53,525 nt of DNA. It comes from Chloroflexota bacterium. GTDB lineage: Bacteria > Chloroflexota > Chloroflexia > Thermobaculales > Thermobaculaceae. Under the pieces are notes generated by a model, which made no database searches, was not told the DNA's origin, and was given only the letters and a program-made list of their open reading frames with translations. The DNA is taken from positions 1 through 53,525 of the forward strand of contig CADDYR010000001.1 of the NCBI GenBank assembly GCA_902810765.1, written 5' to 3'. The translations under genes were made by a program, and so were the position numbers. Shown here one piece after another: positions 2,926 to 30,600 of this stretch. Position 1 is the first letter of the stretch. The number at the start of each line of letters is the position of its first letter.

Positions 2926-3002
2926 GCGCCAGTAGCTCAGTTGGACAGAGCGGCTGCCTTCTAAGCAGCGGGTCGGGGGTTCGAGTCCCTCCTGGCGTGC
3001 CA
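2926..3002 (+). tRNA. tRNA-Arg (anticodon TCT)
   Basis: A full cloverleaf of 77 nt with encoded CCA. The acceptor arm GCGCCAG pairs with CTGGCGT, the D arm is GCTC/GAGC, the anticodon stem is GCTGC/GCAGC with loop CTTCTAA (anticodon TCT), and the T arm is GGGGG/CCCTC around TTCGAGT. It reads AGA codons. It stands at the border between core genes and the defence island, so its 3' half is a candidate integration site. I found no second copy of its 3' end in the window. Confidence 0.95.
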
Positions 3003-7860: not shown

Positions 7861-7874
7861 CCTTCAGTTACCTC

Positions 7875-9760: not shown

Positions 9761-11556
9761 GAAACTTTGCCTTCTACTTGCGTAGTCTGCGGAGTCTTAT
9801 ATGACTCGGGTAGAACGTTCACGCGGTACCACTCATTGGTCAAGGTCTTTACTCGATCCGCCAACGCCTCGGCATCACTCCGGGTCAGATTCAGGTCAGT
9901 GAGCGTGCGGTCCAAGGTTCCGGGTCTGCGCTCCGGCTGCAGGAACATCGCGGCGACGGCTAGCCTTTCTCTCCCTTCCGGGAACGAGGGCAACACTTTC
10001 GATACGAGGGCAGGCGAGAGTACAGGTAGGCGGACGCGGTCATCCCGAGGTGATCGCTCAATCAGCCCGGACAGTACTCGGCTCCAACCCGGACGGCGTA
10101 GCTTCTTGATGGCCTTGTCCTCGATCTGGCGGATGCGCTCCCTCGTGACTCCAAGGCGCGCACCGACCTCCTCCAACGTGTACTCACGCTCTCTCACCAA
10201 CCCGAACCGTAGCTCCAGCACCTCACGCTCCCGCGGTGAGAGCATGGAGAGTACAGCCTCAATCGCCTTTCTAAATGCAAGGAGGTCGAGCGCCTTGGAG
10301 ATGTCCTCGCCCTCAGCAGCCGGCATCCCCGTGGCGGCTTGCGCAAACTGGTCCGAGGAATCCAGCGAGACAACCGGCTGAGCTACCTGCAACAGGTGCT
10401 CCACGCGAGGTAGCGCCCAACCGAGGCTGCTTGCGAGCTGCAGAGCGGAAGGTTCGTGTCCCGTTCGGTCTTTGAGTTGCTGACGTGCGGCATCGAGGGC
10501 CCGGACCTCCTCCCACACGTGAACAGGCAAGCGGATCGACCGCGAGTCGTCCGCAAGAGACCGAGTCACCTTCTGCCACACCCAGTTCGCAGCATATCTC
10601 ATGAACCGGGGAGTTTTCCCGACGTCGTACTTCACGACCGCCCGGAACAGGCCCTCCACACCCTCCTGAAACAGGTCCTCGAGGTCGAGGTCCCGCCCGA
10701 GGTACGGTCGGATCACCCTCGCGACCAGCCACAGGTTGTCCAGCACGAGCGCCTCTCGCGCCGCTAGAGCCTCAGGTGACCAGAACCTTGTGTCCTCACC
10801 TACGCGCTCGACCTCGGCTGCCGTGATCGCGCAGTAGTGCTCCTCCTCCGCACGAGCAAGTACATGGCGCGCCCAGGCGTCAACCAGAAGCTTGCGCTCG
10901 GTGCTCGACAAGTGAACGCCCTCATAGCCGAGCCGCCGGAGCGCCCATGCCTGATCCAGCTCACCCCGAAGGAGACTTCCAAAGCGACGCTTCGCAATCT
11001 CGATGGTCGCGAGCGGCCTGGTCTTACCTGGACTGCCAACACAGCTCGGCAGCACCGGAACGCCGCTGCGGCGCACGAAGTCGTACACCTCGCGCAGGTG
11101 AGGGTCGCTGTTCTGCAGCGCCTGCACGGAGTACGCCAGGTTGCCAAGCGTGAGCCTGCCGTTGCGCTCGATGGCCATCTGTAGGCACGGCAGCACGACC
11201 CAGCGCAATCGCTGCCCAAGCTCCAGGTAGCCCAGGGGTTGCTCGCGGTAGTCCAACCCCTGCGGCTCGTCGTCTTCCTGGATGTCGAGGTCGTCCTCCT
11301 CGAGAATCTCCTCTATCTCATACTCATCATCGCGTACCAGGTCATCGGACTCCTCACGCAGCTCGTGGGGAGTATCATTCCAGTCGATCTGTGGCGGCTC
11401 GTCGATCTCGACGGTTGGCAGGACGGGCTCGGAAGTGGCTGGTGCCGGGTTCGTGAGAGCTGCTGGCGTCGCCGTCTGAGCCTGCGGTGTCGGTACCGCA
11501 TTCGCCGCCACGCGGTCGCCCCAGAGGAAGCTTTCCAGGTCAAAGTCAGCCTGCAT
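9757..11556 (-). CDS. Sigma-70 family protein with extra N-terminal domain, in the defence operon
   Basis: A 599-residue protein with an almost complete group-1/2-like sigma core: region 2 at ~265-340 (DLEDLFQEGVEGLFRAVVKY, then FMRYAANWVWQKVTRSL), region 3 at ~343-400, and region 4 at ~428-488 (LSPREREVLELRFGL, then the helix-turn-helix EEVGARLGVTRERIRQIE). The first ~100 residues are disordered and very acidic (66-100); ~105-260 is an unrecognised helical domain, and ~110 residues follow region 4. A strong AAGGAGGA site precedes the ATG. It is coupled to the TGT-like gene by ATGA. It may direct RNA polymerase to operon promoters, or act as a DNA-melting or recruitment factor; sigma factors are unusual inside defence operons. 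Confidence 0.88.
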   Translation of the reverse strand: MQADFDLESFLWGDRVAANAVPTPQAQTATPAALTNPAPATSEPVLPTVEIDEPPQIDWNDTPHELREESDDLVRDDEYEIEEILEEDDLDIQEDDEPQGLDYREQPLGYLELGQRLRWVVLPCLQMAIERNGRLTLGNLAYSVQALQNSDPHLREVYDFVRRSGVPVLPSCVGSPGKTRPLATIEIAKRRFGSLLRGELDQAWALRRLGYEGVHLSSTERKLLVDAWARHVLARAEEEHYCAITAAEVERVGEDTRFWSPEALAAREALVLDNLWLVARVIRPYLGRDLDLEDLFQEGVEGLFRAVVKYDVGKTPRFMRYAANWVWQKVTRSLADDSRSIRLPVHVWEEVRALDAARQQLKDRTGHEPSALQLASSLGWALPRVEHLLQVAQPVVSLDSSDQFAQAATGMPAAEGEDISKALDLLAFRKAIEAVLSMLSPREREVLELRFGLVREREYTLEEVGARLGVTRERIRQIEDKAIKKLRRPGWSRVLSGLIERSPRDDRVRLPVLSPALVSKVLPSFPEGRERLAVAAMFLQPERRPGTLDRTLTDLNLTRSDAEALADRVKTLTNEWYRVNVLPESYKTPQTTQVEGKVS

Positions 11557-11599
11557 CCATTCCTCCTTCCGCGCCTGCCCGCATTTCAGCTTGGGGGAA

Positions 11600-11612
11600 G
11601 TCTACAATAGAC
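11600..11612. promoter_or_regulatory. Short perfect dyad between SNF2 and sigma-like genes
   Basis: GTCTA-CAA-TAGAC is a perfect 5-bp dyad with a 3-bp centre in the only sizeable gap (60 bp) between the SNF2 and sigma-like genes. It could be an operator or part of an internal promoter for the sigma-like gene, or a chance palindrome. Confidence 0.3.
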
Positions 11613-11616
11613 CTCT

Positions 11617-14600
11617 TCATCCCTCAACCCTCGAGGCCTGTAGCTGCTGGATGCTGAACGTCGAGGATACCATCCCGAACGGCATGCCGTCGCTCGGAAG
11701 TCCGCCGAGAGGGTCTGGAATCGCCTGGTACGAGACGACCCGGTCCCCGTCCACCTCGACTATCGCCAACACGTAGTCCGCGCGCTTGTTCCTGGCCACT
11801 AGCTGTTCGTTACGGGTCAGCGTGATGGTATCAACTCCCACCGCCCGGCCTTTCACCTCGACGAACCGGCTCTTGCCCGTATCGCGATGCGCCGACTCGA
11901 GGTCGTAGCCACGGCGTTCCCCGCTCACATCGCGCGGCTCGTAGCCGGCCTCTCGCTCACGCAGCATCACCTCGCGCATCGCCACCAGCTCGAGTCGCTG
12001 CAGGGCTTCAGGGTCGGGCTCCTGATGGTCTTTCCCTAGGCGATCCGCCGGGACTACGAGCATACCCGCGAGCACCTGCGGAGGCGGGCACTGGACTATC
12101 ACCTCCCGCTTCAGCGCCTCCAGTCGCCACTTGCGCCTTTCCGTGAGCTCCGCCGCCTTATCTCGGGCGTTGTCAACGGCTACCTTCGGAACCGTGCCCT
12201 CGCGGTACTGGCGGTCGAGCTCATCCGCTCGCTTGTCCCAATGGAGCACGAGCTGCGAGAGCCGGTCGTCCACCGCCTGGAGAACCTTGCGCGCTCGCTC
12301 CTCACGCTCCTGTCGCACTCGCTCCAGCTGCTCCTCGGCCAGGTGGACGATGGCGTAGTCCTGCACCGCCTCGAGGTCAACTCTGCGCACCCATTCCGCG
12401 CTCGCGAGCGCCTGCGCCTCGTGTACCTCATCCGGCTCGAGGGGGCGATAGTCCAGGTACGGCGCGGCGCCCGCGCGGACGGCTTTCCCCTCGGCGCCGA
12501 GCTCGACGAAGTGCAGCTCGGAGGAGAGGGTATCCCCATCGTCGTCGGTGACGTCCGTGCGGACCATGAAGAGGAGACGGGGCTCGCCCGTCGCCGACGG
12601 ATCCACCAGAACGGCCCCTTCGGTCATCAGCCCCCCCCACCGCTCCAGTACCAGCCCGAGCGTTGCCTCGAGCAGCGGGTGCCCAGGCCCGATGAACTTC
12701 GCCTCCGTCAGTCCCTCGACCTCGGCAAGCTCCTTGTCGAAGCAGACGCGAGTGTAGCTGGTGGGCAAGGTACAGGAGCGCCCGAAGCGTTGAGCGCGGC
12801 GACGAATCTCCGGCGGCACGTTGCTTATCCGGTAGCGACCGGGCTCCCGCTCGGTAATGCTGCCTCCGAGTCGGGTGAACGCCTCCGCGAAGAAGGACGC
12901 GATGAAGTGGGGCACCAGACGGTTCGTGGCGCCGCGGTCTCGCTCCTCGGCCAGCTCCGTGACCTGCGCGGGATCCATTATCTCGCGAACCAGCCGGTAC
13001 TCCTCGAGCAGGCGGCGGTACTCCTCGAGGTCCGCCAGGTTGGCGACTACCTCCTCCAGTCTCGCCCTCTGCGCTGGGTCGTCCCCATAGCGTATGGCGT
13101 CTAGCATGAGCTCGCGCAGCGGCCGGTCGGTGAACACCTCGCCCAGGACATCGAAGACGGTGTCCCCGAGCGCCTTGCGGGCCTCCTCCAGCTTCGCCAG
13201 TAGCCGGTCGTACACCTCGCCCTCCCGGGTGTTGTACGCCAGCAGGTTCCAGTTATGGCAGACCTCCTTCTGGCCAAACCGGTGGATGCGACCGAAGCGC
13301 TGCTCCAGCCGGTTCGGGTTCCACGGCAGGTCGTAGTTGACCATGAGGTGCGCCCTTTGGAGGTTGATGCCCTCTCCGGAGGCATCCGTCGCCACGAGCA
13401 CGAGCGACTCCTCCCTGTGCAGGAACTCGTTCTGCGCGTCGCGCCGGGCATCGCGGCTCATCCCTCCGTGAATGGTCACCACGGCGTCATCTCGGCCCAG
13501 GTAGTCGCGGATCCGCTCCGCCAGGTAGTGGAGCGTGTCCCGATGCTCGGTGAAGACGACGAGCTTGCGGCGGGACCCGTCGGCCTTGTACATCTCGGGC
13601 GTCTCCTCGAGCAGCGTGCGCATCTCTTGCCACTTGCTGTCCTCGCCCGAGGCGCGAACTCTCTCGGCCAGCGCTTCGAGCCGAGCGAGCTGCTCGAGCT
13701 CGAACTCGAGCTCGGCAATCGTGCGCGAGGCCGACGCGCGATCGACTATCTCCTCGGCTTCATCCTCAGGGCTCTCCTCGAGGTCCGTTTCTAGCTCGTC
13801 GGGCTCGACCCGACCATAGCCGCTAGCGAGATCCAGCTTCTCCAGCCGCTTCCGACGCTCCTCCTCGAGCGTGCGCTCCAGCCGCCTACGACGCCGAGCG
13901 AGCGACTGGTAGATGGCCTCGGGCGAGGATGCGAGGCGGCGCTGAAGGGTCGTGAGCGCGAACCCGACGACCGTCCGGCGCTGTCGGCCCTGCCCGCCCT
14001 CGGCCGCAATGAGGTCGGCCCGGTTCATCTCCTGCCGGACGTACTCCGTCATCTCCTCGTAGAGCTGAAGCTCAAGCGGGGAGAGCGCGTACCCGACGGT
14101 ATAGGCGCGCCGCTCCGGGAACAGCCGACACCCGCCGAAATCCACGAGGTCTTCCTTCATCATCCGGCGCATGACGTCCTGCACGTCCTGCGGCTGCAGC
14201 TTCTCCTGAAAGCGGACCTCGAAGCGGTCGGGGTCCAAGAGCTGCATGAACATCTGGAAGTCGATCTCCTTGCCGCGGTGCGGTGTGGCCGTCAGCATCA
14301 GGAAATGCCGGGAGCGCGCGCTGAGCAGCTTGCCGAGCTTGTAGCGGGCGGTCTCCCTCACTTTGTTCGTGCCGGGCTGCATGGTCGCGCTCATCTTGTG
14401 CGCCTCGTCGACCACGACCAGGTCCCAGTCCACCTGGGACAGCCGCTCCAGCTGCTCCTCCTGCTTGAGGAGGTCGATCCGCGCGATCACGAGGTTACGC
14501 TCCGCGAACACGTTGACCGCCGCGGACTCGATCTCATGGCGTCCGACGATGTCGAAGTGCAGCCCGAACTTCTCGAGGAGCTCGTCCTGCCACTGCACCT

Positions 14601-15621
14601 CGAGCGAGGCGGGCACCACGATGACGCACCGTTCGAGGTCTCCCCGAAGGATGAGCTCCTTGATGAAGAGGCCCGTCATGATGGTCTTGCCGGCACCCGG
14701 ATCGTCGGCCAGCAGGAAACGGAGCGGCTGGCGCTGGAGCATCGTCTCGTACACCGCGGAGATCTGGTGAGGCAGTGGCTCAATCCACGACACCGAGACC
14801 GCGAGCTGAGGGTCGAACAGGTGGGCCAGCCGGATGCGCTCCGCCTCGAGCGCGAGGCGACAGAGGGCGCCATCGGCCGTGTACGTCCAAGCACCACCAC
14901 CCTCGACGACTTCGAGCGAGGGCTCGCTCGAGCGATACAGCACGCGGGTTCCAGGCTTACCCGTGACTACGTCCTCGTAGGTCAGCCTTACCGCCGTACC
15001 CCCGATCATCCTGGCGCTCAGGACTCGTACGGGTCCGTCCTGGCTCACGCCGAGGACGACAGCGCCCTCGGTCAGGTCCTCGAGCCGCGCTCCCGCGGCC
15101 GAGCTCGTCCTCAGCGGCTTGGTCAAAGCAGGAAACTCCTCGAGCACTTCCAGGTCAAACGGTTGGTAGATCCGCGAGCGCTCGCGGAGGCGGGACAGGC
15201 TCTCGACGTGCACGTAGCCGTCCCGGGGGTCGAGCTTGAGCCCAGCGCCACTCTCCGCAACGCGGTAGTTGTGGATGAGGTGGGCGACCGCGTGGGCGTA
15301 CAGCCCGACCTGCTCCCCCACGGGCAGGCGGGAGTCGAGCGCGAGCAGCCAAGAATCGGGCGGCTCCCCGTGGGGCACGAGCGCGGCATCGAACCTACCC
15401 GCGGGCGGAACCCGATACGCGGGGCAGGCTCCGGGGCCCAGGGCACGCGACAGGCTCGCAGCGTCGAGGCCATCCACCAGGAGCAGCTTGGCAGGCAGCA
15501 AGGCGTGGCCGAGAGAGCGCGCCCGCTCGCGGCAGCGGCGGTGGAGAGCCTGCACGCCGCCGGAACGTGGAGTCCAGGACGCGAGCAGCGAGAGCAGCCG
15601 CTCCACGGTGTCAGCTGCCAT
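11617..15621 (-). CDS. SNF2-type helicase with IrrE-like N-terminus and DUF3883-type C-terminus (DpdE/DrmD-like)
   Basis: A 1334-residue SF2 helicase of the SNF2/RapA class. N-terminal ~75-170 contains a zincin-like segment (YAHAVAHLIHNY, ~108-119) that recurs in the adjacent HsdR. Motif I is LLADDPGAGKT, motif II VVVDEAHKMS, motif III LMLTATPHRGK; the C-terminal helicase lobe has TDASGEGINLQRA and QRFGRIHRFGQ. The last ~100 residues carry GYDLES and RFVEVKGRA, the D...ExK pattern of DUF3883/PD-(D/E)XK-like domains. The start at ATG 15621 lies 5 bases after the preceding stop; the open frame extends further upstream only as a shadow of that gene. SNF2 proteins occur in Dpd (DpdE) and DISARM (DrmD); which is nearer needs a profile search. 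Confidence 0.85.
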   Translation of the reverse strand: MAADTVERLLSLLASWTPRSGGVQALHRRCRERARSLGHALLPAKLLLVDGLDAASLSRALGPGACPAYRVPPAGRFDAALVPHGEPPDSWLLALDSRLPVGEQVGLYAHAVAHLIHNYRVAESGAGLKLDPRDGYVHVESLSRLRERSRIYQPFDLEVLEEFPALTKPLRTSSAAGARLEDLTEGAVVLGVSQDGPVRVLSARMIGGTAVRLTYEDVVTGKPGTRVLYRSSEPSLEVVEGGGAWTYTADGALCRLALEAERIRLAHLFDPQLAVSVSWIEPLPHQISAVYETMLQRQPLRFLLADDPGAGKTIMTGLFIKELILRGDLERCVIVVPASLEVQWQDELLEKFGLHFDIVGRHEIESAAVNVFAERNLVIARIDLLKQEEQLERLSQVDWDLVVVDEAHKMSATMQPGTNKVRETARYKLGKLLSARSRHFLMLTATPHRGKEIDFQMFMQLLDPDRFEVRFQEKLQPQDVQDVMRRMMKEDLVDFGGCRLFPERRAYTVGYALSPLELQLYEEMTEYVRQEMNRADLIAAEGGQGRQRRTVVGFALTTLQRRLASSPEAIYQSLARRRRRLERTLEEERRKRLEKLDLASGYGRVEPDELETDLEESPEDEAEEIVDRASASRTIAELEFELEQLARLEALAERVRASGEDSKWQEMRTLLEETPEMYKADGSRRKLVVFTEHRDTLHYLAERIRDYLGRDDAVVTIHGGMSRDARRDAQNEFLHREESLVLVATDASGEGINLQRAHLMVNYDLPWNPNRLEQRFGRIHRFGQKEVCHNWNLLAYNTREGEVYDRLLAKLEEARKALGDTVFDVLGEVFTDRPLRELMLDAIRYGDDPAQRARLEEVVANLADLEEYRRLLEEYRLVREIMDPAQVTELAEERDRGATNRLVPHFIASFFAEAFTRLGGSITEREPGRYRISNVPPEIRRRAQRFGRSCTLPTSYTRVCFDKELAEVEGLTEAKFIGPGHPLLEATLGLVLERWGGLMTEGAVLVDPSATGEPRLLFMVRTDVTDDDGDTLSSELHFVELGAEGKAVRAGAAPYLDYRPLEPDEVHEAQALASAEWVRRVDLEAVQDYAIVHLAEEQLERVRQEREERARKVLQAVDDRLSQLVLHWDKRADELDRQYREGTVPKVAVDNARDKAAELTERRKWRLEALKREVIVQCPPPQVLAGMLVVPADRLGKDHQEPDPEALQRLELVAMREVMLREREAGYEPRDVSGERRGYDLESAHRDTGKSRFVEVKGRAVGVDTITLTRNEQLVARNKRADYVLAIVEVDGDRVVSYQAIPDPLGGLPSDGMPFGMVSSTFSIQQLQASRVEG

Positions 15622-15626
15622 CGTCT

Positions 15627-17072
15627 CTATCTCGGGCCCCCTGCTTCCAGCCGTCGGAGCAGCTCCTGGAGCCTCTGGCGGACGCTGGCCGACGTCGTGG
15701 CCAGGTCGGGCGCTGACTCCACCTCCGCGCGACGGATGACTCGCCTCAGCCTGCGCCGACCGCCCTCCGGATCGGGGGAAGAGTACCAGCGGCCGTCCCC
15801 GTGTACGAAGCCGCCGGCGTAGAGGGCCGAGCGGATGGAGCCGCGATGCACCGTGTGTCCCTGCCGCTCGCGAACGGACTCGACGACCTCCCGGAACGTA
15901 AGGCCATCGGGCGCGCCAGAAAGGATGGCCTGGATGGACTGCCGGTAGGATTCGCCAAGGCCGCCGCGGAGCTCCGCCAGCACCTCCACGTCGACCAGTC
16001 GCGTCTCCTCCTCCTGCACGGCCTCGTCCCGACCGATGATGGAGAAGACGAGGACGTCCGGCGCCCACTGCACGCGGAGCAGGTCGCCCGCCTCGCACCA
16101 GGCGAGCTTATCCGCGAGGTCGGCGCCGTAGAGCAGGTTCGCGCTCCGGTCGAGCCAGACCCACAGCCGGTCGTTATCGGCGTACCATCGCCCGCGCAGC
16201 GCGGTAACGTCCCCCTCGCCCGGCCGGCGCGATGGGTATATCGAGCGCACGGCCTTCGGGACTCGGAGGACGCCCTCATTGATGTGTGTAGTGCGCAGGG
16301 GCACGGTCCAGGCGGCCACTTGCTTGGCGTTGGGACCTTCGGTTTCGATGCGCGCGACCGGCGGCTCCGGCTGCTCCACGTACACGACCTCGACATCCTG
16401 CGAGTCTCTCCCGATGGCGAGCACCCGGAAGCGCGACGGGCGAGCGTGCTCGGGGACGGTATGAGCCAGCGCCCAGTAGTCGTATCCCACCCGACGGATC
16501 CCATCCCAGCTCGCGAGCCACGCCTGCACCAGCCGCCAATCCTCGTCGTTCCCTCCATCCCAGCCCAGCGACTCCAGCATCCCCGATATCTGTCGGACGG
16601 TCAGCGGCTGGGCTCCCTCCTCGAGCCACAGCGTCGTGAGCTCGGCCGCCAGCTCGTCCAGGCGCGACCGCTCCTCGGGCGCGAGTTCGACCTCGACCTC
16701 GCGGTCGGCAGATCGGAGCGTGCCGTTCCGATCCATCTGGAAGCGAGGGTCCACGGGACAGAACACGTAGTGGACTCCGTCCTCGGCCTCGAGCTCGGCA
16801 AGCTTGGCGTCTACATCCCGGCCGTCCCACGTCCCCTGATTGAGCGCGTCGAGCAGGCGATCGTTCCCAAGCACCTGCTCCGCGAGCCTCCACTGTCGAG
16901 GATGCTTTGCATCCCGCTCTCGCGCCAGCACAAATCGTGAGTCGACGTGAATGGGGAGCTCGATACCCAGCTCCCAGACAGCGCTGAGCGCCTCATCCTC
17001 CGTGAACGTCCGGCGCGTAGGCCGCAGACGCTCCACTGCCTCCTCGAGCAGGTGTCCAACCTCGGTCTCCAT
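15627..17072 (-). CDS. Unknown protein with predicted winged-helix ends, defence operon
   Basis: A 481-residue soluble protein that I cannot assign. The N-terminal ~120 residues look like a winged helix (TFTEDEALSAVWELGIEL, then RQWRLAEQVLGNDRLLDAL). A second possible winged helix lies at ~385-440 (GLTFREVVESVRERQGHTVH, GSIRSALYAGGFVH), ending in DGRWYSS. The middle has beta-rich segments (VEVVYVEQPEP, GRWYADNDRLWVWLDRS). Its ATG overlaps the stop of the exonuclease-helicase fusion (TGATG) and the SNF2 gene starts 5 bases after its stop, so it probably works with those two as a DNA-binding or adaptor subunit. Dpd/DISARM counterparts are unknown to me. Confidence 0.6.
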   Translation of the reverse strand: METEVGHLLEEAVERLRPTRRTFTEDEALSAVWELGIELPIHVDSRFVLARERDAKHPRQWRLAEQVLGNDRLLDALNQGTWDGRDVDAKLAELEAEDGVHYVFCPVDPRFQMDRNGTLRSADREVEVELAPEERSRLDELAAELTTLWLEEGAQPLTVRQISGMLESLGWDGGNDEDWRLVQAWLASWDGIRRVGYDYWALAHTVPEHARPSRFRVLAIGRDSQDVEVVYVEQPEPPVARIETEGPNAKQVAAWTVPLRTTHINEGVLRVPKAVRSIYPSRRPGEGDVTALRGRWYADNDRLWVWLDRSANLLYGADLADKLAWCEAGDLLRVQWAPDVLVFSIIGRDEAVQEEETRLVDVEVLAELRGGLGESYRQSIQAILSGAPDGLTFREVVESVRERQGHTVHRGSIRSALYAGGFVHGDGRWYSSPDPEGGRRRLRRVIRRAEVESAPDLATTSASVRQRLQELLRRLEAGGPR

Positions 17073-20000
17073 CACGCCGCCAGCTCCGGGAACTCCGGCA
17101 GCTCGATGCCGCCCGCCAGCGCGTCTCGCCCCTTCTCGGTGAGCCTGACGGCCTGATACGTCTCGTCCCGGTTGCGCATCGGCCTCTCCTCGAGCGCGAG
17201 AAAGCCTGCCTCGATGAGGACCTCGATCGTGCGCCGCAGCCGGTCTCGCGTCGTGGCTCCTTCCAGGACGCCGAAGTGGTCGGAGGCTCGTGCACTCGGA
17301 GTGAGCTGATAGCCGTCACCCACGAGCATATTTACGAACGTGCGGCTGCTGTAGATACGGTTGTGCTGGAGCACCGCCGAGAGCACCGCGAGCCGCGGGT
17401 CCACCTTCAGCGGCTCCCCGTACAGGCGCACGCCCGGGTCCCAGGGCAGCTGCTCGTTCGTGGGGCTGCACAGGTCGCACCGGCCGCAGAGCGGAGCATC
17501 ATCACGGCCCGTGAGGTAGTTGACCAGGAAGGCGCTCCGGCACCGGCTCCCACCGGGCCTCAGTCTCGCGTAGTCGAGCATGTCCTGTAGCCGCTCCTCG
17601 AACATCCCGTAGCGGGCGCCGAACCTGGATTCGAGGTCTTTGACGCGGTCGGGAGTGAGGTCCGCCGGGTCAACCTGGAGCGTGATACCGCGCCGGTACG
17701 GACGGTACAGTACCAGATCGCGCTGGCTCAGGTGAACGAGCAGCGGCTCGAGGCTGCGCGGGTCGAGGCCGGTCTCTCGGTACACCTGAGCCGCGAGGTA
17801 CTTCCGCTGCACGTCGCGTTCGGCGCCTAGGGCGTCGAATAGCAGCCGAGCCGGACCCCGATCTGAGGAGGGCAGCTGCCCCAGAATCTCATCAGGATGC
17901 GCGTTCAGGAGTATGGTGCCCTCGAGGGTACAGTCCGCGCCCCGCTGGAGCAAACCCTCGGCCTCGAATGAGTAGAGGAGCATGCGCCCCTCTGTCGGCT
18001 CCACCCCAGCCAGCTCCGATACCTCGTCGGGGTCACAGAGGATGTAGCCATCGGGGAGTCGAGCCGCGTTGATGTGTTCGGAGTTGACCGACGACAGGGC
18101 CCGAGCGTACTCCGTGAGGACGCTGTTCTGGAGGACGCCCTGCTGCGCTATGAAGCGGAGGGTGCGCTGCGTCTGGGAGTTGTACAGCAGGATGGCGTAA
18201 GCCGGCTTACCATCGCGGCCCGCCCGGCCAGACTCCTGTGTGTAAGCCTCGAGACTCGCCGGGTGGTCATAGTGGAGCACGAAGCGGATCTCGGCCTTGT
18301 CGACGCCCATCCCGAACGCGGTCGTAGCGACGACCACCTCCAGCTCACCCTGCATGAACTGCTCCTGCACCTGGTGGCGCTCGGGCGTGGACATCCCGCC
18401 GTGATACGCCTGTGCCGCGATGTTGTACGCGCGGAGGAGACTGGCCAGCTGTGTCGCTGTCTTGCGCGTGGCGACGTACACAATGCCCGCTCCACCCTGC
18501 TCCTCGTTGCGCACAAGCTGGTGCACGATGCTCGCGGTCAGCTTGTCCCGATCCTCACGCTTTTGAACCTCGTACACCCGGTACATCAGATTGGGGCGAA
18601 CGAAGCTGCCGCTGTAGGTGAACAGCTCGCGCTGTCGGCCCATCCGCAGCTTTTCGACGATTTCCCTCTGTACGGCTTGGGTCGCAGTAGCGGTGAGGGC
18701 CTGAATGGGCAAATCGTCCGGCAGGAGCTGCGCGATCTCCAGAAAGTCGGGGCGGAAGTCGTGCCCCCACGTCGAGATGCAGTGCGCCTCGTCTACGACG
18801 AGCTGAGTCAGTTGGACGCTATCGAGGACGGCCCGGAACCTGGGGTCGCGGAGGCGCTCGGGGGAGACGTACAGGAGCTTGAGACGACCTGCCACAGCGT
18901 CACGCAGCACCTGCTCCTGACTGGCGGCGTCCATTCCGGATACGAGCGCCGCGACGCACTCGAGACCCGGCACCTCGCGCAGCTTCTCGACCTGGTCACG
19001 GATGAGCGCAATGAGCGGGGAGATGACGAGCGTGAGTCCGGGCCGGATGAGCGCGGGCAGCTGGAACGTGCGGCTCTTGCCCGCACCCGTCGGCAGGAGG
19101 GCCAGCACGTCCTTTCCTGCGAGGACCGCCCGCATTATCTCTTCCTGACCGGGGCGGAAGCCCGAGTGCCCCCAGATGGCCTGCTGTACGGTCAGGAGAC
19201 GGGGCCGGGCGACGGAGTCGTAGTCTTCATCCGACAGCACCGGCGTCGGGAGCTGATTCTCCTGAAGGATGCGGGCGATCTCGGCCGATTCCGGCTCGGG
19301 CAGATCCTCCTCGCTGAACGGGAGGCCCATCCACTCCGCCACGTGGCGGAAGAGATCGACATCGGAGTCGTAGCGGACCGTCGGCTCGGGCAGCGAGCGC
19401 AGGACCTCCGCCCGGTACAGTGAGTTGCGCAGCCGCTTGTCGAGGAGGATGACAGCCCCCCGGTCCTCGGGGGAGCGCACCAGGCGACCAAAGCCCTGCT
19501 TGAGCACTATGATCATCTTCGGGAGCAGGTAGTCGTAGAACGGGTTGTGGCCAGCCTGCTCAACCGCCGACATGCGGGCCGCTTCGACGGGGTCCCCGAT
19601 GCTGGGGTACGGCAGCTTCTCGAGGAAGACGTAGGATAGGGACTCGCCCGGCACGTCCACTCCCTCCCAGAGGGAGCGCGAGCCGAGCAGCGAGCTGGCC
19701 GGGGTTTCCCTGAACTCCTGAATCAGTCGCTGCAAGCCACTGCGCCCCTGACACAGCACGGGGAACCCCTCCTCGATGAGGCGGGAGGCGAGCTGCTCGT
19801 ACACGAAGTCGCGCCGGCTGTTGGCCGTGAAGAGCACGAGGGAGCGACCATGAAAGTACGGGATGAAGCGGGCGAGGAGGCCCGCGACGGCCTCCGGGAA
19901 CTTGCGCTTCAGGTCGCTGTCACGTGGAGCGGGCAGGTCGTTGGGCAGCTCGAGGAGCGCAAGCGAGTGGTAGTCGAACGCGTGAGGCAGAGCACACTCG

Positions 20001-22450
20001 ATGAGCCGCTTGTCCGGCGCTTTGTCCGCGATGCGGCCACGCTCCAGACCTATCCTTCCGAGGAAGAACTCGAAGCCCTGGCCGTAGACGGTCAGCGTGG
20101 CGGAGGTGCAGATGCCCGCGTCGAGCCGCGACCAGAGTCCGTCCCAGAGCTTGGGCCCGACGTTCACGGGCACTCCGCGCAGGGCCACCGGCGCTCGTGA
20201 AGGCTCCCCGTCGCGCGATGCCGGTAGCTTGCCCAGCTCGATCATCCGCACGTGCGTTGTTCCCTCAGCAAATGACCAGAACCAGCCATAAGTTTCGTAA
20301 ATGGCCTTGAGGTCCCCGACGACGCGGCGGAGATGTCGGATCACCCTCCTGGCTCGGCGCCCTGCAGCTTCGCTCCCGCGCGGGCCTGCCTCGTTGCCTC
20401 GATGGTGCAGCTGGACCAGGCTGTCAGACAGCCCCTGCAAAGCGCCGCGGAACGTATCCACGGCAGTCCGCAGGTCCGGCCCACCCGCAGCCTGGAACAC
20501 ACCCCGGTCGATCGCGATGCGCACACCGTAGCGATCGAGATCAGCGCGATTGACCACGGTCTTGTTGACTACGTACTTGCGGAGCTGCGTGGCGAGCGCG
20601 TCGAGCGCCCCCGTCACCCGGTCCACGGCCTCACGTACTGCCACGACAGTCTCGTCGTCGCGGTCGAGCCCGAAGGCCGCCCTCGCGTCGGCCAGCAGTC
20701 CTCGTGACCGTGGGGCGACTATTCCGCGCAGCAGCCTGCGCAGCTCCGTCTCCTCCACGCGCTGCTCCAGAGCGTTGGTAGCAGCATCTTCGAGCGTGTG
20801 CGCCTCGTCGAACACCAACCGGGTCGCGAATGGCTCCTCGTCATCCGCGCTTCCGAGGTAGCTGGTCAGCAGGAGCGCGTGATTCACGACGATGATGTCC
20901 GCCCGCTCTGCATTAGCCCGCGCCCGGGTGTAGAACTCCTGCAATGGCCCGGCCGGGGGATCGTCTCTGCCTGAACGAACGGTAGAGAGCATGGCGAACA
21001 CCGCCCCGTCGGCCTCCAGATACTCATCCAGTGAGCGTGGGATATAGGCCAGCTCCTCCAGGTTGCCGTGAGCGCTCTCAGCGGCGAAGCGCACGAGCAG
21101 CCCGAGCGTCCAGGCAGTCGGGCGCAAGAGGTGCGCGGCCTCGAACGCCTCGAGCAGTTCGTCGGCCAGGCGCGCCACCGAGATGTAGTTGGCCCGACCC
21201 TGGAGCTGCGCGTATCTGAGGCCCGGCAGCAGCTCCTGCACGAACGGCAGCTCACGTCTCACGAGCTGGTCCTGAAGCACCTTCGTGTACGTCGAGACCG
21301 CGACGGGCGAGCTGGTGGCCAGGGCGTCCACGGCGGAGGGGATGAGATAGCCGAGGCTCTTGCCGGTACCCGTGCACGCTTCGATGACGCCGTAGCCTCC
21401 GGTTTCGAGCAGGTCGCGAACCTCGCCCGCCATCTGGAGCTGAGCCTCACGCCGGCTGCGGCCCCTCTCCTCCGCGCGCCGGAACACCGCCTCGACCGAC
21501 TCCCGTGAGCTGGCTGCGTGCCTCTCCTCAAGCAGCGGAGTGATGTTCCGCGCTAAGTGGGCGCTGATGGATTGGGCGGATACGATCGCGTGTGGCGGCT
21601 CGAGCAGGTACGACCAGGGGTCACCGGCTCGGCGCAGCAGCTCGTACACCGCCGCGCCGGTCTCGGTATCACGCAGCTCGCGGCCCAGGCCCTGGATGAT
21701 GCTTCCGAGCATCGCGACATCCACCGCCGCGTCGTGAGCACCTGCACGTGCGCATCCGAACCTCTCTGCAAGCGACTCCACGCGGTGCTCGGAAGCAAGC
21801 GGCAGCAGCACGCGGGACAGGGGCAGCGTGTCGAGGACGAGCCACGTGGACGGTAGCGTAATGCCGAGTCGCTGAGAGACCGCCTCAAGGAGCGGACCAT
21901 CGTAGCTGGCGCCGTTGTGCGCGATGACGGGCAGGTCGCCCACGAACGCGAGGAACTGCGGCAGGACCTTCTGAGCACAGCCCGCGCTCGCCACGTCCTC
22001 GTTCGTGATCCTGGTCAGCTCCTCGATCTCGGCGGGAATGGGCCTCGTCGGGCGAACGAGCTCGTCGAAGGTCGCTACGCAGCGCCCGTCTACCCACCGC
22101 TCGGCGGCTATCTGGATGATCTCGTTGCCGGGCAGTCTCGGATCCTGCCCCAATGCTTCCAGGTCGAAGACCACGTAACAGCCCCGCTGCAGGTGGGGAT
22201 ACTCGAGTGTCGGAGTCTGTACCTCATTGGGCTCGGGGTGCTCGATGACAGTGCGGAGCTGCCAGCGTCCGCCAACCTCGCTGAACCGGTGCGGCAGCTC
22301 ACGGAGCACCTGTGCCACGCGCGGCGCAGGTAGCCTCTGGCCGACTTGCCGACTGACCCCCGCGGTGAGGGCCTCGAGAGTCATCCCGTCCGGCTCTGTC
22401 CTGAGCGCCTGCGCCGCGGCTTCCGCCACACGCTGTTGCATCGCGTTCAT
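17072..22450 (-). CDS. Giant fusion: winged helix + DEDDh exonuclease + DinG/XPD helicase + RecQ helicase
   Basis: A 1792-residue, four-part protein. Residues 1-66 look like a winged helix. Residues 92-260 are a DnaQ-type 3'-5' exonuclease with FDLEA (Asp96, Glu98), AHNGASYD (Asp184) and AHDAAVD (His239, Asp244). Residues ~340-1010 are a DinG/XPD helicase with ACTGTGKS (~359-365), DEAH (548-551), [10 protein letters not shown] and [15 protein letters not shown]; the four Fe-S cysteines of DinG/XPD are missing (NYIS at ~421). Residues ~1085-1560 are Rec[34 protein letters not shown], and the zinc Cys set 1637/1655/1658/1661. A winged helix closes the protein. The RBS AGGAG lies 9 bases before the ATG. 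Exo-DinG proteins exist; fusion to RecQ is unusual. Probably DNA resection or degradation. Confidence 0.9.
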
Positions 22451-22454
22451 GCGG

Positions 22455-22640
22455 TCAGCTCTCCTCTGGCAGGTTCAACAGGAGCCGCAGGGTGCGGAAG
22501 AAGTCGTCGCGAGCCGCCCGCACGTCCGCTTCGGGATACTCCTCGCTCGCGGCTGCGCGTATCAGGGCATCCATCAGCGTCTCACCCAGTTCGAGCACCT
22601 CGGCTGCGATCTCCTGCCTTTGGTCTACGGGCGGCCTCAT
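22455..22640 (-). CDS. Small helical protein, probable first gene of the defence operon
   Basis: A 61-residue acidic helical protein beginning [14 protein letters not shown] and ending NLPEES. The frame is open further upstream (to 22778), but that extension is Cys/Pro-rich and unlike protein from this genome, so I prefer the ATG at 22640, preceded by GGAAGAG. It ends 4 bases before the giant exonuclease-helicase gene, which suggests translational coupling. Its function is unknown; a regulator, inhibitor or small subunit is possible. Confidence 0.5.
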
Positions 22641-23116: not shown

Positions 23117-24304
23117 TTATAGCTCCCCGCGAAACGCCCTGTCGAGCACGGAGGGCAGCATTGCATCGAGCTCCGCCTGCGTCTCGGCCTGCAGTGCTTT
23201 CACCGCGCGCACCTTCGCCTGCAACCCGTCTAGGTACTGAACAAGGCGGTGCTGCTCGTTGATCCCAATCTGCGTCGGAAACGGAATACCCATGACATCG
23301 GCCTGAGAGATCTTACGCATGCTAGGACTCGTTCCCTTTGCCACCGTACCGATGTAGTCACGAACCCTTGGACCCATCAACCAGTAATGTACGAACCTAA
23401 TTGAAGCTTGAGCCTCGTCAACCACCAGCTTCATCATTAGATCGGGGTAAATACAAGGCTCGGGCCGCCCGTCATAGATAGCGGCGTGACCAACAAGGTC
23501 TGGAGTGTTGCTGCGGGTAATGAGTAGATCTCCGGTCTTCAACCAGTAATGAGCGTCCGCCGTCGTTGGTTCAGCGGTCCTCTTGAACTCATTCCCTCGA
23601 TACTGGTAGCCACTTACTGCGCTTAGAGTCAGTACAGGCGTACCTGCCGATGCCTCGTCACACGGGGGCGACCAACCGTTCCGAGGTCGCTCGATCAGAA
23701 CCTCACCCAAGACTCCGGCTGGAACACCCACCACCATCCTCTGAACTACCGACGCAACCAGCGCACGAGCCGCCTCTCCCGCCTGCTGTCGGAGGGCCCG
23801 CGCCTCCTCAATCTTACCCGCGAGTTCCTTAATGCGCGCCGCCAAGTGCCGCTGCTCATCGATGGTAGGGATGGGAACGGGGATGGGTAACAAACGATTG
23901 GCCCTGAGCTCAGTCTTAATGCCGCCCGGCACATACGCAGACATCAACTCCCTGAACATGTCACTTCGGAGGAGCCACCAAAGATAGCGGAGGTCTGCCT
24001 TGTCGTCATCAACCCGATAGGTGCTGTAGTGGATGGTGGCGGCCAAGTCTGTATTGTGCTCCCTGCCATACATCCCAACAGCACCCTTGGCCGCATTGAT
24101 ACCAGAAACGACTAGATCGCCTGGTTTGATGAGTATCATTCCCGTCCTGGTCTCACCACCCTGCCTCAGCTGAATCACACCATCGTTGAATCCGATCTTG
24201 TCGACTATTGCTATTTCGCCGTTCTTGAGGGCATTCTCATCCGGCGTCTCACGGCGTTCGGTCAGTACCTCGCTGAGAGGCAGTATCGGATACGCACTGC
24301 TCAT
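23117..24304 (-). CDS. hsdS: Type I restriction-modification specificity subunit HsdS
   Basis: A 395-residue specificity subunit that recognises the bipartite DNA target of the type I enzyme. Two target-recognition domains are seen, each followed by the typical conserved region and a long helix: PIPVPIPTIDEQRHLAARI plus the helix EEARALRQQAGEAA around residues 150-190, and IPFPTQIGINEQHRLVQYLD plus KVRAVKALQAETQAELDAML at the C-terminus. The ATG at 24304 overlaps the hsdM stop (ATGA). The long upstream frame read through hsdM is spurious. Base composition is lower in GC than in the neighbours, which is common for exchangeable HsdS genes. Confidence 0.92.
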   Translation of the reverse strand: MSSAYPILPLSEVLTERRETPDENALKNGEIAIVDKIGFNDGVIQLRQGGETRTGMILIKPGDLVVSGINAAKGAVGMYGREHNTDLAATIHYSTYRVDDDKADLRYLWWLLRSDMFRELMSAYVPGGIKTELRANRLLPIPVPIPTIDEQRHLAARIKELAGKIEEARALRQQAGEAARALVASVVQRMVVGVPAGVLGEVLIERPRNGWSPPCDEASAGTPVLTLSAVSGYQYRGNEFKRTAEPTTADAHYWLKTGDLLITRSNTPDLVGHAAIYDGRPEPCIYPDLMMKLVVDEAQASIRFVHYWLMGPRVRDYIGTVAKGTSPSMRKISQADVMGIPFPTQIGINEQHRLVQYLDGLQAKVRAVKALQAETQAELDAMLPSVLDRAFRGEL

Positions 24305-25797
24305 CGAGGTGCTCCCGCTAGCGCCTGCTGAATCTCCCGCATCAGCTCGGCTATGCGCTGCTCCTTCTCGAGGGTGCTCGCGGCCAGCTGCTCCGGTGGC
24401 AGGTGCTCCAAGGGCTCGGCTGCGTTCGGGTTCTTGAGGTCCAGGTTGTAGCCGTTCTCCCGCAGCCGCTCCACCGGCACGCACCACGCGCGCTCGTTCT
24501 CCTGTCGGTCGTTCCACCACTCCTGGACGGGCGCGAACTCCTCGTACTGTAGCGGCTTCGTCTTCGTGTACTGCTTCCGGCCCTCCGGCAGCGGCAGATC
24601 GTAGTACCAAACCTCGCGCGTAGGCTCGCCGGACTCGAAGAACAGCAGGTTCGTCGGAATGCTCGTGTACGGCGCGAACACGCCGTTGGGGAGGCGGACT
24701 ATCGTGTGCAGATTGAACCGCGTGAGCAGCCGCTCCTTCACCGCCGTTTCCACTCCCTCCGCGAACAGGAAGCCGTTGGGCAGGACGATGGCGCAGCGGG
24801 CGCCCGTTCGCTTCAACTTCTCCATCACGTACACCACAAACAGCGTCGCGGTTTCCGCTGTGCGCGCCCAGAACGGGAAATTGCTGAGTATTCCCCGCTC
24901 CTCCTCCCCACCGAAGGGAGGATTCGTCGCAATCACGTCCACCCTCTCCTCGTCGCGGATTTGTGTCACGTTCGTGGAGAGCGTGTTCTGCTCGTACAGC
25001 CGAGGCTCCTCGACGCCGTGCAGCATCATGTTCATCACCGCCAGCAAGTACGGCAGCGGCTTCTTCTCTATGCCGACCAGGCTCTCCTGCAGCCGCTCCC
25101 GGTCGTGGGGATTGCGCACATCGCGCTTCATGTGCTCGTGCGCCTCGACGAGGAAGCCCGCCGTCCCGCAAGCCGGATCGAGCACCGTCTCGCCGAGCCT
25201 GGGGTCCAGCCGGTCTATCATGAAGCGGATGACGGGGCGCGGGGTGTAGAACTCACCCGAGGAACCCGCGGCGTCGCGCATCTCGCTCAGCATGCGCTCA
25301 TAGAACACGGCGGCCATGTGGACGTCGTCCGAGGAGTTGAGGTTGATGGTGTCTAGCTTGTCCACGACCTCGCGGAGGATGTAGCCCGAGCGGACGCGGT
25401 TGTAGATGCCCTGGAACACTCGACCCACCACGGAGCGCAGGTACTGCTGACGGGCGCCGGAGAGCGTGGCGAGGTGCGGGAAGAGCTGATCGTTCACGAA
25501 CGAGATGAGCTCGTCCCCGGTGCGCTGGCTCGTGAGGTCATCGGGGCTCACCCAGTCGTGCCAGCGGTACGGAGGGTCGATGACGGGCTCGTACTCGTCA
25601 TACTCCTCCTCGCGCGCCCAGTCATAATCGTCCACGGCCTTCAGGAAGAGCATCCACGTCAGCTGCTCGAGGCGGTCCGTCTCGCCCGAGAGTCCCGCGT
25701 CCTTCCGCAGCTGGTCACGCACCGATTTGATGGTGCTGTCGAACTGCTGCCTGCTCGTGAGCGGCTGCGCCTGCTTCCTCGTTTGTCCTCGCGGCAT
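24301..25797 (-). CDS. hsdM: Type I restriction-modification methyltransferase subunit HsdM
   Basis: An N6-adenine DNA methyltransferase of 498 residues. An N-terminal HsdM bundle (FDSTIKSVRDQLRKDAGLSG) is followed by the catalytic domain with the SAM-binding motif I VLDPACGTAGFLVEA, the catalytic motif IV ATNPPFGGEEE and GEFYTPRPVIRFM. The C-terminus has a coiled coil that binds HsdS. I prefer ATG 25797, which has AAAGGA upstream; GTG 25815, overlapping the hsdR stop as GTGA, is the alternative. All catalytic motifs are intact, so methylation is likely functional. Confidence 0.93.
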   Translation of the reverse strand: MPRGQTRKQAQPLTSRQQFDSTIKSVRDQLRKDAGLSGETDRLEQLTWMLFLKAVDDYDWAREEEYDEYEPVIDPPYRWHDWVSPDDLTSQRTGDELISFVNDQLFPHLATLSGARQQYLRSVVGRVFQGIYNRVRSGYILREVVDKLDTINLNSSDDVHMAAVFYERMLSEMRDAAGSSGEFYTPRPVIRFMIDRLDPRLGETVLDPACGTAGFLVEAHEHMKRDVRNPHDRERLQESLVGIEKKPLPYLLAVMNMMLHGVEEPRLYEQNTLSTNVTQIRDEERVDVIATNPPFGGEEERGILSNFPFWARTAETATLFVVYVMEKLKRTGARCAIVLPNGFLFAEGVETAVKERLLTRFNLHTIVRLPNGVFAPYTSIPTNLLFFESGEPTREVWYYDLPLPEGRKQYTKTKPLQYEEFAPVQEWWNDRQENERAWCVPVERLRENGYNLDLKNPNAAEPLEHLPPEQLAASTLEKEQRIAELMREIQQALAGAPR

Positions 25798-25811
25798 TCT
25801 CCGTCCTTTCG

Positions 25812-28800
25812 TCACGCCGAGTACAGCAGCTGCTGCATCTCGCCGAGTGCTTCCCTGACCTTCTTTCCCCCGCCGAAGCGGCTCGCCAGCTCCACGAACG
25901 TCCCCTCTTCCGACAGCGGCGGCACCTTCAGCAGGTTGGTGTTGCCAACCTCCTCAGTCTCGCCACTCACGTACTTATCGAGGATTGCATCCAGGATACG
26001 ACGGGCCGTGGGCTCGTATCGCTCGAAGAACTCGGGGTGCTCCTGCCGCAGCCTGCGCGCGTACTCGCTACGGGTATGAGCGGGCAGGCCGAAGGCGGCG
26101 TGGAGCAGCAGGTCTAGCGGGTCGGCCTCGGGCTGGTGCAGCGCCTCGGCCAATGTTGGTATGTCCACGCCCTCCGCGTACAGTCGCTCGAGAAGCTCCT
26201 CGCGCTGTTCGGGGTGCAGCCACCGCGCCCGTAGCTCGGTCGGGCTCTCAGCCACGCCTCGCAGCGCGGCCCGCGTGTAGTCCCGATACGAGAGCGCGCG
26301 CAGGGTCTTACCGTCTGGCCCCAGATCGTACACCACCTCGCCCCGCACAGAGAGCACGTGCCGGTCCCCGTGCCGCACGACCTCCTCTGGCGGGGCTGGC
26401 TCGACCTCCGGCTCCGCGGGCTGCTCCACTCGCTCTGTCGTCGGTTGCTGGCCCGCGGGCACCGGCTCGACCCGCTCATCAATCGCTACCCCGGGTACGA
26501 CGTCAACGACCGGCCCGACAGGCTCAACACAGCCAGTGGCACCGAGCGCGTCCTCAGTCACTGGCTCGCTTTCCGGCGGGGGCAATCCGGGCTCATACTC
26601 ACCGTGAGGCTCGTCGACTGTTACCTCCGCCGCGGTATCTGGGTCAGGCGTGTATTCGACGGGTTGCACGACCTCTACGTCCACGACCTCTGGATAACCG
26701 TCGAAGCCTGGATCGAAGAACAGCTTCGTCGCACCCGAGTAGTCGAGGATGGTGAACCAGGCCTTGTCGGGCTCGTGGAGACGGGTACCCCTTCCGATGA
26801 TCTGTTTGAACTCAACCATTGACCCTACGGGACGCGCGAGGACGATGTTCTTGCAGGTCGGCACGTCCACGCCGGTACTGAGGAGCCGTGAGGTGGTGAC
26901 GACGACGGGCGTCGGCTCGTCGGGAGTCGCGAACCTGCCGAGCGCTCGCCGCCCCTCGAGCCCTTCCTCCGCGACGATGCGCTCCACGTAGTCGGGGTGT
27001 CTCTCGACCAGCTCCGACAGCTCCCGCTCGAGGGCGAATCGCATGAGGTCGGCGTGCGCCTGGTCTACGCAGAAGACAATCGTCTTCGCCATCGGGTCAG
27101 TCTCGCGCAGGTACTCCGCGAGGTGATGGGCTATGACGTCGGTCTGTTCCCGCAGCGTGCGCTCGTCCAGATCCTCGGCGGTCGCGCCCGGCACGTCGGC
27201 GACCTCGGCCCCGAGGAGCACCCTGCGGACGCGGTACGGAGCGAGGAAGCCGTCGGTGATACCGTCGCGCAGCGAGTACTCCACGATTGGATTTCCGAAG
27301 TACGAGTAGGTCTGGATGTTCTCATCCTGCTTCGGGGTGGCGGTCAGGCCCACCTGGATCGCGCCGGAGAAGTACTCGAGAATCTCCCGCCAGTTCGACT
27401 CGTCCTGCGCACTGCCTCGATGGCACTCGTCCACGATGACCAGGTCGAAGAAGTCGCGCGGGTAGTCTCGAAACAGTCCTCGGCGGACCTCGGACTGAGC
27501 AATCGCCTGGTAGGTGGCGAAGATGACGTCGCGGGCGGTGTTCGCGACTCCACGGATGCGCCAGCGCGCGTCGCTCAGAGGGCCGAACTCGTTGTCCATG
27601 GCCTGACTGAGCAGGTAGTCACGGTCCGTGAGGAAGAGCACCTTGCGGAATGCTCCGGTCCGCTTCAGTTTCCAGACCAGCTGGAAGGCGACCTTCGTCT
27701 TCCCCGTCCCGGTTGCAAGCGTGATGAGAATCCTCGGCGAACACAGCCTGCGCTTGGCTTGGAGGGCCGCGACGACCGCGTGGTTGATGGCGGCTTCCTG
27801 GTAGTAGCGCGGGTGAGCGCCGGAGCCGTACGGGTACTCGATGGTACGGCGGGCCTGCGCATCCTCGAGGCCGAGACCGCTGAGCCATCGCTGCTCGAGC
27901 TCGGCGGGCGGGGGCACGTCTTGGATGAGCGTGACTCGCGGCTCGGGGCAGCGGCAGTCGTACTCGCGAACGGTCTCGCCAGGACCCACGAGGTACGCGA
28001 ACGGCACGTGCAGGCGGGCGCGCGCTAGCTCCACAAGGCGGCGCTCCGCTTCGGCGGCGTCCTCGTCCGCCCTGAGCAGCTGGACTGCGGCGATAGGCAC
28101 GGATGCCTCCACGCGGAGCAGCGCGTCAACTTTCAGGCCGGGGCCGCGGCGAACCGTCGAGCCGGTCACGTACACGCGCCCCGGCGTGAGCACATAGGGG
28201 AGCTCAAGGAGCCTCCGCGGCCAGCCCGACTGAACGAGGCGGCTCCGGAGCTCGGAGAGCTCGGTGCCGGAAGCGGCAGGAAGCTCGGACTGCGGACCGA
28301 GAAGCTGGGCGAGCGTCGGGTAGGTCTCGAGCACGCGCCGATCCACCGGCTGCGGCGTGAGGTCGAGCTGCCGAAGCTCCGCGACGGTGTCGGCGTGTGC
28401 GTAGCCATCCCTGGGGTCGAGGAGCGGCAGCTGGCCGAGACGACAAGCCTCCCGGTTGAGGAGCAGGTGCCCGACGGCGTGGCCGTACAGAGCGACCTGG
28501 TCGGGCAGAGGTAGCTCGGCCCCTACAGCGAGCAGCCATCTGTCTCCGACCGGAACGAGTGCCGCATCGAATCCACCCGCGAGCTTTCGTCTGAACTCGA
28601 CTGCGCCGCTCGGCTCGCGCCAGCGCACCCGTCGCAGCTCCTCGACAAGCCGAGAAGCATCCAGGTGTGGCACGAGGATGAGTCGTGCAGGGACCAGCTC
28701 GTGGTCACCAGGACTGACAGCAGCCGCTACCTGGGTGTGCAGGTCAGCCAGTGACGCTCCCCGCTCGGCACCTCTCCAGCCTGCAATGAGGCTCTGCAGT

Positions 28801-28904
28801 CGAAGCTGCACATCGAGCGCTCGGTCGGTGTCGATCGATGTCACCAGTTGCCATTCTCCGTCGAGAGCAAGGAGGGTCAAGAAAGCTACCGGGTGAATGT
28901 CCAA
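25812..28904 (-). CDS. hsdR: Type I restriction subunit HsdR with IrrE-like N-terminus and degenerate nuclease motif
   Basis: A 1030-residue EcoEI-type R subunit. Residues ~110-200 hold an extra domain (YGHAVGHLLLN, 140-150) almost identical in pattern to that of the SNF2 helicase. It is followed by the HsdR_N region where the usual D...ExK reads KVDALL...VQLLRA, so the ExK pair is missing. The translocase motifs are intact: ATGTGKTKVAFQL, VIVDECHRGS, GLTATPKQDE, TTSRLLSTGVDVP and QIIGRGTRL. A Pro/Glu-rich linker precedes the EcoEI_R C-terminal domain (IPTLAEALHQPEADPLDLLL). The frame opens with TTG at 28904; GTG within QLVTSID is another possible start, so the exact start is uncertain. Translocation seems possible, cleavage doubtful. 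Confidence 0.88.
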   Translation of the reverse strand: MDIHPVAFLTLLALDGEWQLVTSIDTDRALDVQLRLQSLIAGWRGAERGASLADLHTQVAAAVSPGDHELVPARLILVPHLDASRLVEELRRVRWREPSGAVEFRRKLAGGFDAALVPVGDRWLLAVGAELPLPDQVALYGHAVGHLLLNREACRLGQLPLLDPRDGYAHADTVAELRQLDLTPQPVDRRVLETYPTLAQLLGPQSELPAASGTELSELRSRLVQSGWPRRLLELPYVLTPGRVYVTGSTVRRGPGLKVDALLRVEASVPIAAVQLLRADEDAAEAERRLVELARARLHVPFAYLVGPGETVREYDCRCPEPRVTLIQDVPPPAELEQRWLSGLGLEDAQARRTIEYPYGSGAHPRYYQEAAINHAVVAALQAKRRLCSPRILITLATGTGKTKVAFQLVWKLKRTGAFRKVLFLTDRDYLLSQAMDNEFGPLSDARWRIRGVANTARDVIFATYQAIAQSEVRRGLFRDYPRDFFDLVIVDECHRGSAQDESNWREILEYFSGAIQVGLTATPKQDENIQTYSYFGNPIVEYSLRDGITDGFLAPYRVRRVLLGAEVADVPGATAEDLDERTLREQTDVIAHHLAEYLRETDPMAKTIVFCVDQAHADLMRFALERELSELVERHPDYVERIVAEEGLEGRRALGRFATPDEPTPVVVTTSRLLSTGVDVPTCKNIVLARPVGSMVEFKQIIGRGTRLHEPDKAWFTILDYSGATKLFFDPGFDGYPEVVDVEVVQPVEYTPDPDTAAEVTVDEPHGEYEPGLPPPESEPVTEDALGATGCVEPVGPVVDVVPGVAIDERVEPVPAGQQPTTERVEQPAEPEVEPAPPEEVVRHGDRHVLSVRGEVVYDLGPDGKTLRALSYRDYTRAALRGVAESPTELRARWLHPEQREELLERLYAEGVDIPTLAEALHQPEADPLDLLLHAAFGLPAHTRSEYARRLRQEHPEFFERYEPTARRILDAILDKYVSGETEEVGNTNLLKVPPLSEEGTFVELASRFGGGKKVREALGEMQQLLYSA

Positions 28905-30359: not shown

Positions 30360-30600
30360 CACCCTGCCCTCCTCAGGACCTGCCTCGCGCTCACCCTCAG
30401 CCCGAACCTTGGCACGCCGTCCGCTCCGACAGGCGCATGCGCTGAACCTGACCCAAGTCTACTGCAACACGAGTGTCGAGGGTTAGGTACCGCTCCCGTC
30501 GGGAGTGCAGGGCCGGGAGGCGACGTATCCGCCGCTCTGATGTCCCTGGCAGCGCCCCTTGGTACCCGGATACGAGACACAGTGCATATCGCATAGCCGC

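Follow-up and report, generated by a model that had tools for sequence, protein, structure and literature searches.

A DEDDh exonuclease-DinG-RecQ fusion protein in a conserved, probably Type I restriction-derived gene cassette of Chloroflexota

A stretch of 53,525 nucleotides from a Chloroflexota bacterium (GenBank assembly GCA_902810765.1, contig CADDYR010000001.1, positions 1 to 53,525; here called the window) encodes a protein of 1792 residues in which a DEDDh exonuclease, a DinG-type helicase core and a RecQ helicase are joined in a single frame. The gene for this fusion is the fifth in a conserved six-gene cassette that also contains hsdR, hsdM and hsdS of a Type I restriction-modification system. 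The fusion is suggested as the destroyer of DNA because the cutting site of HsdR itself looks broken, and it is an evenly balanced proposition that the fusion serves, in trans, as the effector that destroys DNA in a defence cassette derived from Type I restriction. The triple-fusion architecture is already known, and the cassette setting appears to be undescribed. The relevant features of the window are:

11617..15621, minus strand: HmaA/DrmD-like helicase with NOV_C domain, adjacent to the conserved core and outside it
15627..17075, minus strand: 482-aa partner protein with a predicted B3-like domain (residues 252-350) and a predicted winged helix (366-436)
17072..22450, minus strand: fusion protein, 1792 aa, with winged helix, DEDDh exonuclease, FeS-less DinG, RecQ, zinc site and RQC-like winged helix
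17102..17653, minus strand: RecQ zinc site and RQC-like winged helix of the fusion, residues 1600-1783 (weak Pfam matches)
18131..19195, minus strand: RecQ helicase core, residues 1086-1440
19328..21454, minus strand: XPD/DinG helicase core, residues 333-1041, FeS cysteines missing
21686..22177, minus strand: DEDDh exonuclease domain, residues 92-255 (RNase_T, 9e-20)
22241..22450, minus strand: putative N-terminal winged helix, residues 1-70, matching in type the winged helix at the C-terminus of the 482-aa protein
22455..22640, minus strand: conserved small open reading frame, 61 aa, with its end 4 nt short of the start codon of the fusion
23117..24304, minus strand: hsdS specificity subunit, 395 aa (PRK09737, 6e-19; from the translation)
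24301..25815, minus strand: hsdM N6-adenine methyltransferase, NPPF motif intact (N6_Mtase, 1e-66)
25812..28904, minus strand: hsdR-like gene, with N-terminal zincin-like domain (1-215), degenerate PD-(D/E)XK nuclease, intact translocase motifs and EcoEI_R_C
28260..28904, minus strand: N-terminal IrrE/CapP-like domain of HsdR, with HExxH replaced by HAVGH, a putative pseudo-peptidase

The fusion gene runs from an ATG at 22450 to a TGA at 17072 with no internal stops, and a GAGGAG motif lies upstream of the start codon. The first-pass annotation had the coordinates, the length and the lack of stops right; the strand had to be corrected to minus, the plus strand across 17072-22450 containing many stops. 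It had also raised the possibility of an assembly error joining two genes near codon 1070, and had called for a search for proteins with the same domain order. That search, across 400 genomes of the phylum, recovered three proteins with 55-59% identity to the window protein, from Dictyobacter arantiisoli Uno17, Tengunoibacter tsumagoiensis Uno3 and a Ktedonobacteraceae metagenome-assembled genome (MAG). Two of the three are full length (1842 and 1854 aa) and the third is cut by a contig end; the Tengunoibacter gene sits within a contig of 5.3 Mb. The occurrence of proteins this similar in genomes independent of one another, the two full-length ones among them, excludes both chance and assembly error, and the join near codon 1070, present in all three genomes (isolates included), is biological. 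The scan of the genome collection used two peptide patterns, so that relatives in genomes beyond the phylum sample may have escaped it. A phage collection gave matches to the RecQ part of the fusion only.

Family searches and a residue check bear out the domain order, and the intact catalytic motifs of all three modules, that had been read from the translation. Pfam and NCBIfam models place RNase_T at residues 93-248, a weak DEAD_2 match at 507-570, Helicase_C_2 at 864-1022 (4e-39), DEAD at 1099-1261 (8e-34) and Helicase_C at 1308-1414 (6e-23), with RecQ_Zn_bind (1619-1661) and RQC (1689-1783) both under the Pfam cut-off. The DinG model PRK08074 spans residues 92-1041 and the RecQ match spans 1088-1438; the RecQ model TIGR00614 scores 356 bits against a cut-off of 219.8. 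The exonuclease residues D96, E98, D184, H239 and D244 are all present and are invariant in alignment A1. Both Walker A/B sets and both motif VI arginine segments are intact: the DinG module carries CTGTGKS (from C359), DEAH at 548 and QGFGR at 985, and the RecQ module carries PTGAGKS at 1120, DEAHC at 1220 and its arginine segment at 1405. The zinc cysteines C1637, C1655, C1658 and C1661 are invariant across eight fusions. At the N-terminus, the one comparison with the predicted winged helix of the partner (hhalign probability 90%, E 1.7e-6) suggests a further winged helix.

One feature not picked up in the first reading is the loss of the FeS cluster from the DinG module. The four cluster cysteines that characterize FeS-containing XPD/DinG helicases are gone, with no cysteine at all between residues 359 and 781. 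The DinG enzymes of Bacillus subtilis and Staphylococcus aureus are likewise FeS-less and act as 3'-5' exonucleases, and in a recent study the B. subtilis enzyme lacked robust 5'-3' helicase activity (PMC12525004). By analogy with B. subtilis DinG, the DinG part of the fusion may unwind DNA poorly because the cluster is absent, and bidirectional unwinding by the fusion is therefore not claimed. The Bacillus and Staphylococcus proteins resemble the fusion in joining a DEDD exonuclease to an FeS-less XPD/DinG core, but have no RecQ, winged helix or restriction operon.

The genes next to the fusion give it a context that the first-pass annotation had missed when it described a single-polypeptide unwinding and degradation machine: all the modules do lie in one frame, but the protein belongs to a conserved six-gene Type I set. 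The order hsdR, hsdM, hsdS, a small open reading frame, the fusion and a protein of about 500 aa is common to the window, Dictyobacter and Tengunoibacter; conservation is judged from three complete loci, along with one in which the fusion and HsdR are on separate contigs. The small open reading frame encodes 61, 67 and about 86 aa across the three loci, with homologues at the same place in loci L022 and L023. The gene for the protein of about 500 aa is followed by PKS genes in Dictyobacter and by a gene for an unrelated WD40-type protein in Tengunoibacter, and the conserved unit therefore ends there. Only 3 of 29 genomes in the Dictyobacter family have this gene, a patchiness that fits a mobile defence unit. 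The Dictyobacter hsdS region (5935-7200, plus strand of L022) is broken by stops; either the fusion there may operate with no specificity subunit, or the cassette may be decaying. No paper describing a Type I system that has a RecQ or DinG partner was found in the literature searched, in which subscription journals were thinly covered.

The hsdR, hsdM and hsdS genes resemble those of EcoAI/FtnUII-type systems in their translocase and methyltransferase motifs, with HsdR scoring 695 bits on the EcoAI/FtnUII model against a cut-off of 550. The window set differs from that type in three respects, namely the loss of the HsdR nuclease glutamate and lysine, the addition of a zincin-like N-terminal domain and the presence of three more genes. 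Residues 221-746 of HsdR align to the Vibrio vulnificus HsdR structure 3h1t, whose PD-(D/E)XK catalytic segment PIAVVEAK reads PIAAVQLL in the window protein, TAALHVQ in Dictyobacter, LAAVHFQ in Tengunoibacter and IAVVHVQ in the MAG. The catalytic E and K are gone from all four proteins and the helicase motifs are intact, so that HsdR, judged by its sequence, has lost the nuclease motif typical of Type I enzymes. About 215 extra residues precede this region, and their predicted model (pLDDT 77) aligns best, among solved structures, to CapP (7t5t, Z 6.2) and PprI/IrrE (Z 5.2) with VIA-align. Foldseek with this model returned no significant match, and Pfam gave a single, weak hit to a metallopeptidase in one of the members. 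The HExxH position reads HAVxH in every member seen, and the domain is likely a zincin-like fold without the catalytic glutamate. Within the phylum sample it occurs in exactly 4 of 400 genomes, the same four that carry this fusion subfamily.

The last gene of the cassette overlaps the fusion gene at a TGATG/GTGA stop-start junction. Its 482-aa product has no family match, and its predicted model is poor overall (pLDDT 60), so that only two local fold matches were used. Residues 252-350 match B3 DNA-binding domains at Z of about 9, with LlaJI.R1, a restriction protein, among them at Z 8.9, and residues 366-436 of the model match winged helices. In LlaJI, the B3 domain is responsible for site-specific DNA binding (PMC7680126).

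The reading that best accommodates these results is that recognition and destruction have been separated within a Type I system. HsdMS would mark self DNA through adenine methylation, and on unmarked DNA the HsdR complex would translocate and stall, unable to cut. The fusion would be recruited by its own winged helix together with the B3/winged-helix partner, or would start from free ends where linear DNA enters the cell. Its RecQ module would unwind 3'-to-5' and its DEDDh domain would digest the 3'-ended strand, with the FeS-less DinG core probably acting less as a strong helicase than as an ATP-driven clamp or exonuclease regulator. Single-stranded DNA or a partner protein may be what the degenerate zincin domain of HsdR senses. 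The more specific proposal, a distinct Type I-derived defence in which a nuclease-dead, sensor-equipped HsdR translocates and a separate fusion guided by the B3/winged-helix protein destroys, is put forward with slightly more reserve than the effector role itself. The sequences provide the base for these proposals: a conserved cassette order, intact methyltransferase, specificity and HsdR translocase motifs (apart from the broken HsdS of Dictyobacter), a lost HsdR nuclease motif, and a fusion in which the DEDDh exonuclease is intact and two ATPase motors are present; the mechanism of the cassette as a whole is what we infer. Also in favour of the effector role are the stop-start overlap of fusion and partner genes, the confinement of the HsdR N-terminal domain to genomes with this fusion subfamily, the LlaJI.R1 match of the partner, the patchy distribution and the neighbouring defence genes. 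One point that counts against the effector role is that an exonuclease requires a DNA end, which a first cut would have to supply.

A second such point comes from more distant fusions. The first-pass annotation had implied that the triple fusion was new, but a DnaQ-DinG-RecQ fusion on the megaplasmid of Thermus thermophilus HB27 was reported by Omelchenko et al. in 2005 (PMC1274311), and proteins of about 1650-1660 residues with the identical module order are found on other Thermus and Meiothermus megaplasmids. The window fusion is 30-33% identical to these Thermus-type proteins over the full length (alignments A1 and A2). The HB27 protein (TT_RS10770, on pTT27; about 31% identity) shares the order of DEDDh exonuclease, DinG, RecQ and zinc site, but has no N-terminal winged helix and keeps the FeS cysteines (330, 396, 400 and 406) that the window fusion lacks. 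A further, more distant triple fusion of 1775 aa occurs in a genome of the same class (G069), with an N-terminal extension that aligns to the winged helix. It is directly adjoined by a gene for a 2174-aa ATPase that matches TmtA of PADLOC (6401-12925, minus strand of L009). In trees of the individual modules, all fusions group together at 90/91 for DinG and 59/44 for RecQ, neither value reaching the strong threshold; a single origin of the triple fusion is consistent with these trees and is not proven by them.

Since the related fusions in Thermus and G069 occur without hsdRMS, restriction is not the sole partner, and the fusion may be a reusable effector coupled to various sensing modules. 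The 515-aa partner in Thermus and the 482-aa partner in the window show no homology by hhalign, and the two modules therefore differ. These other settings, ahead of three unrelated genes near CRISPR loci in Thermus and beside the Tiamat (TmtA)-like ATPase in G069, lend themselves to the account that the fusion acts on its own in defence or repair, as a helicase-exonuclease degrading foreign or damaged DNA, and only happens to accompany an ordinary Type I system, the operon being a chance gathering of island genes. This account is a less probable contender, however, given that the gene order is conserved in different genera, that the fusion co-occurs strictly with the modified HsdR domain and that the HsdR nuclease motif is lost in all four proteins.

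Helicases and a nuclease are combined in one machine in WRN and RecBCD, which are comparable by analogy, their domain order and nuclease family differing from those of the fusion. The RecQ-exonuclease combination of WRN could be cited in favour of a housekeeping DNA-repair factor, devoted to RecBCD- or WRN-like end resection or to fork processing. FeS-less DinG exonucleases do work at stalled forks (PMC12525004), and the Thermus protein was listed among strain differences tied to thermophily (PMC1274311). Such a role is nevertheless unlikely, as the fusion subfamily is sporadic (4 of 400 phylum genomes) and sits among restriction genes, and distinct genes for DinG and RecQ-like proteins are retained in the genome. 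It is more improbable still that HsdR cuts through an unrecognised active site and that the fusion merely clears the fragments, as RecBCD does after Type I cleavage: HsdR is well conserved in its translocase and EcoEI_R_C parts, and Type I cleavage products are normally broken down by host exonucleases, but none of the four proteins retains either the E or the K that the PD-(D/E)XK motif needs for catalysis.

Type I restriction is usually regarded as a closed HsdRMS machine. If the effector role of the fusion is correct, recognition and destruction in restriction can be split and re-plugged, and the triple fusion, a curiosity of Thermus thermophilus HB27 in 2005, gains a testable role in two cultured Ktedonobacteria. 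The cassette context is judged worth testing.

The genes around the cassette are defence genes. The helicase gene next to it gives a near full-length HmaA match, with no HmaB or HmaC match seen; beyond the HmaA model, its product has a zincin-like N-domain as in HsdR, at 40% identity. Membership of the fusion in a Dpd system was rejected, as its resemblance to DpdF is limited to the RecQ core and, at 215 bits, is far under the NCBI cut-off of 550. The DpdA model did not match the TGT-like protein encoded nearby, and no preQ0 genes were seen in the cluster. The defence genes lie between a tRNA-Arg(TCT) gene (2926-3002, plus strand) and a tyrosine integrase-like gene (29256-30362, minus strand), an arrangement like that of an integrated island; the tRNA-Arg has no att repeat longer than 11 nt elsewhere in the window. 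Inside the island, a gene at 9757-11556 (minus strand) encodes a Sigma-70-like protein with a long N-terminal extension, whose top family match is MzaA, far under the cut-off. Beside it, genes for the TGT-like protein, a 273-aa protein and a 1346-aa FGYGKT-ATPase form a three-gene unit (3820-9760, minus strand). Genes for a TGT-like protein and for proteins of about 273 and about 1230 aa lie side by side again in two other genomes, G051 and G053 (L036 and L037), and the G051 set adjoins Druantia DruE/DruF-like genes.
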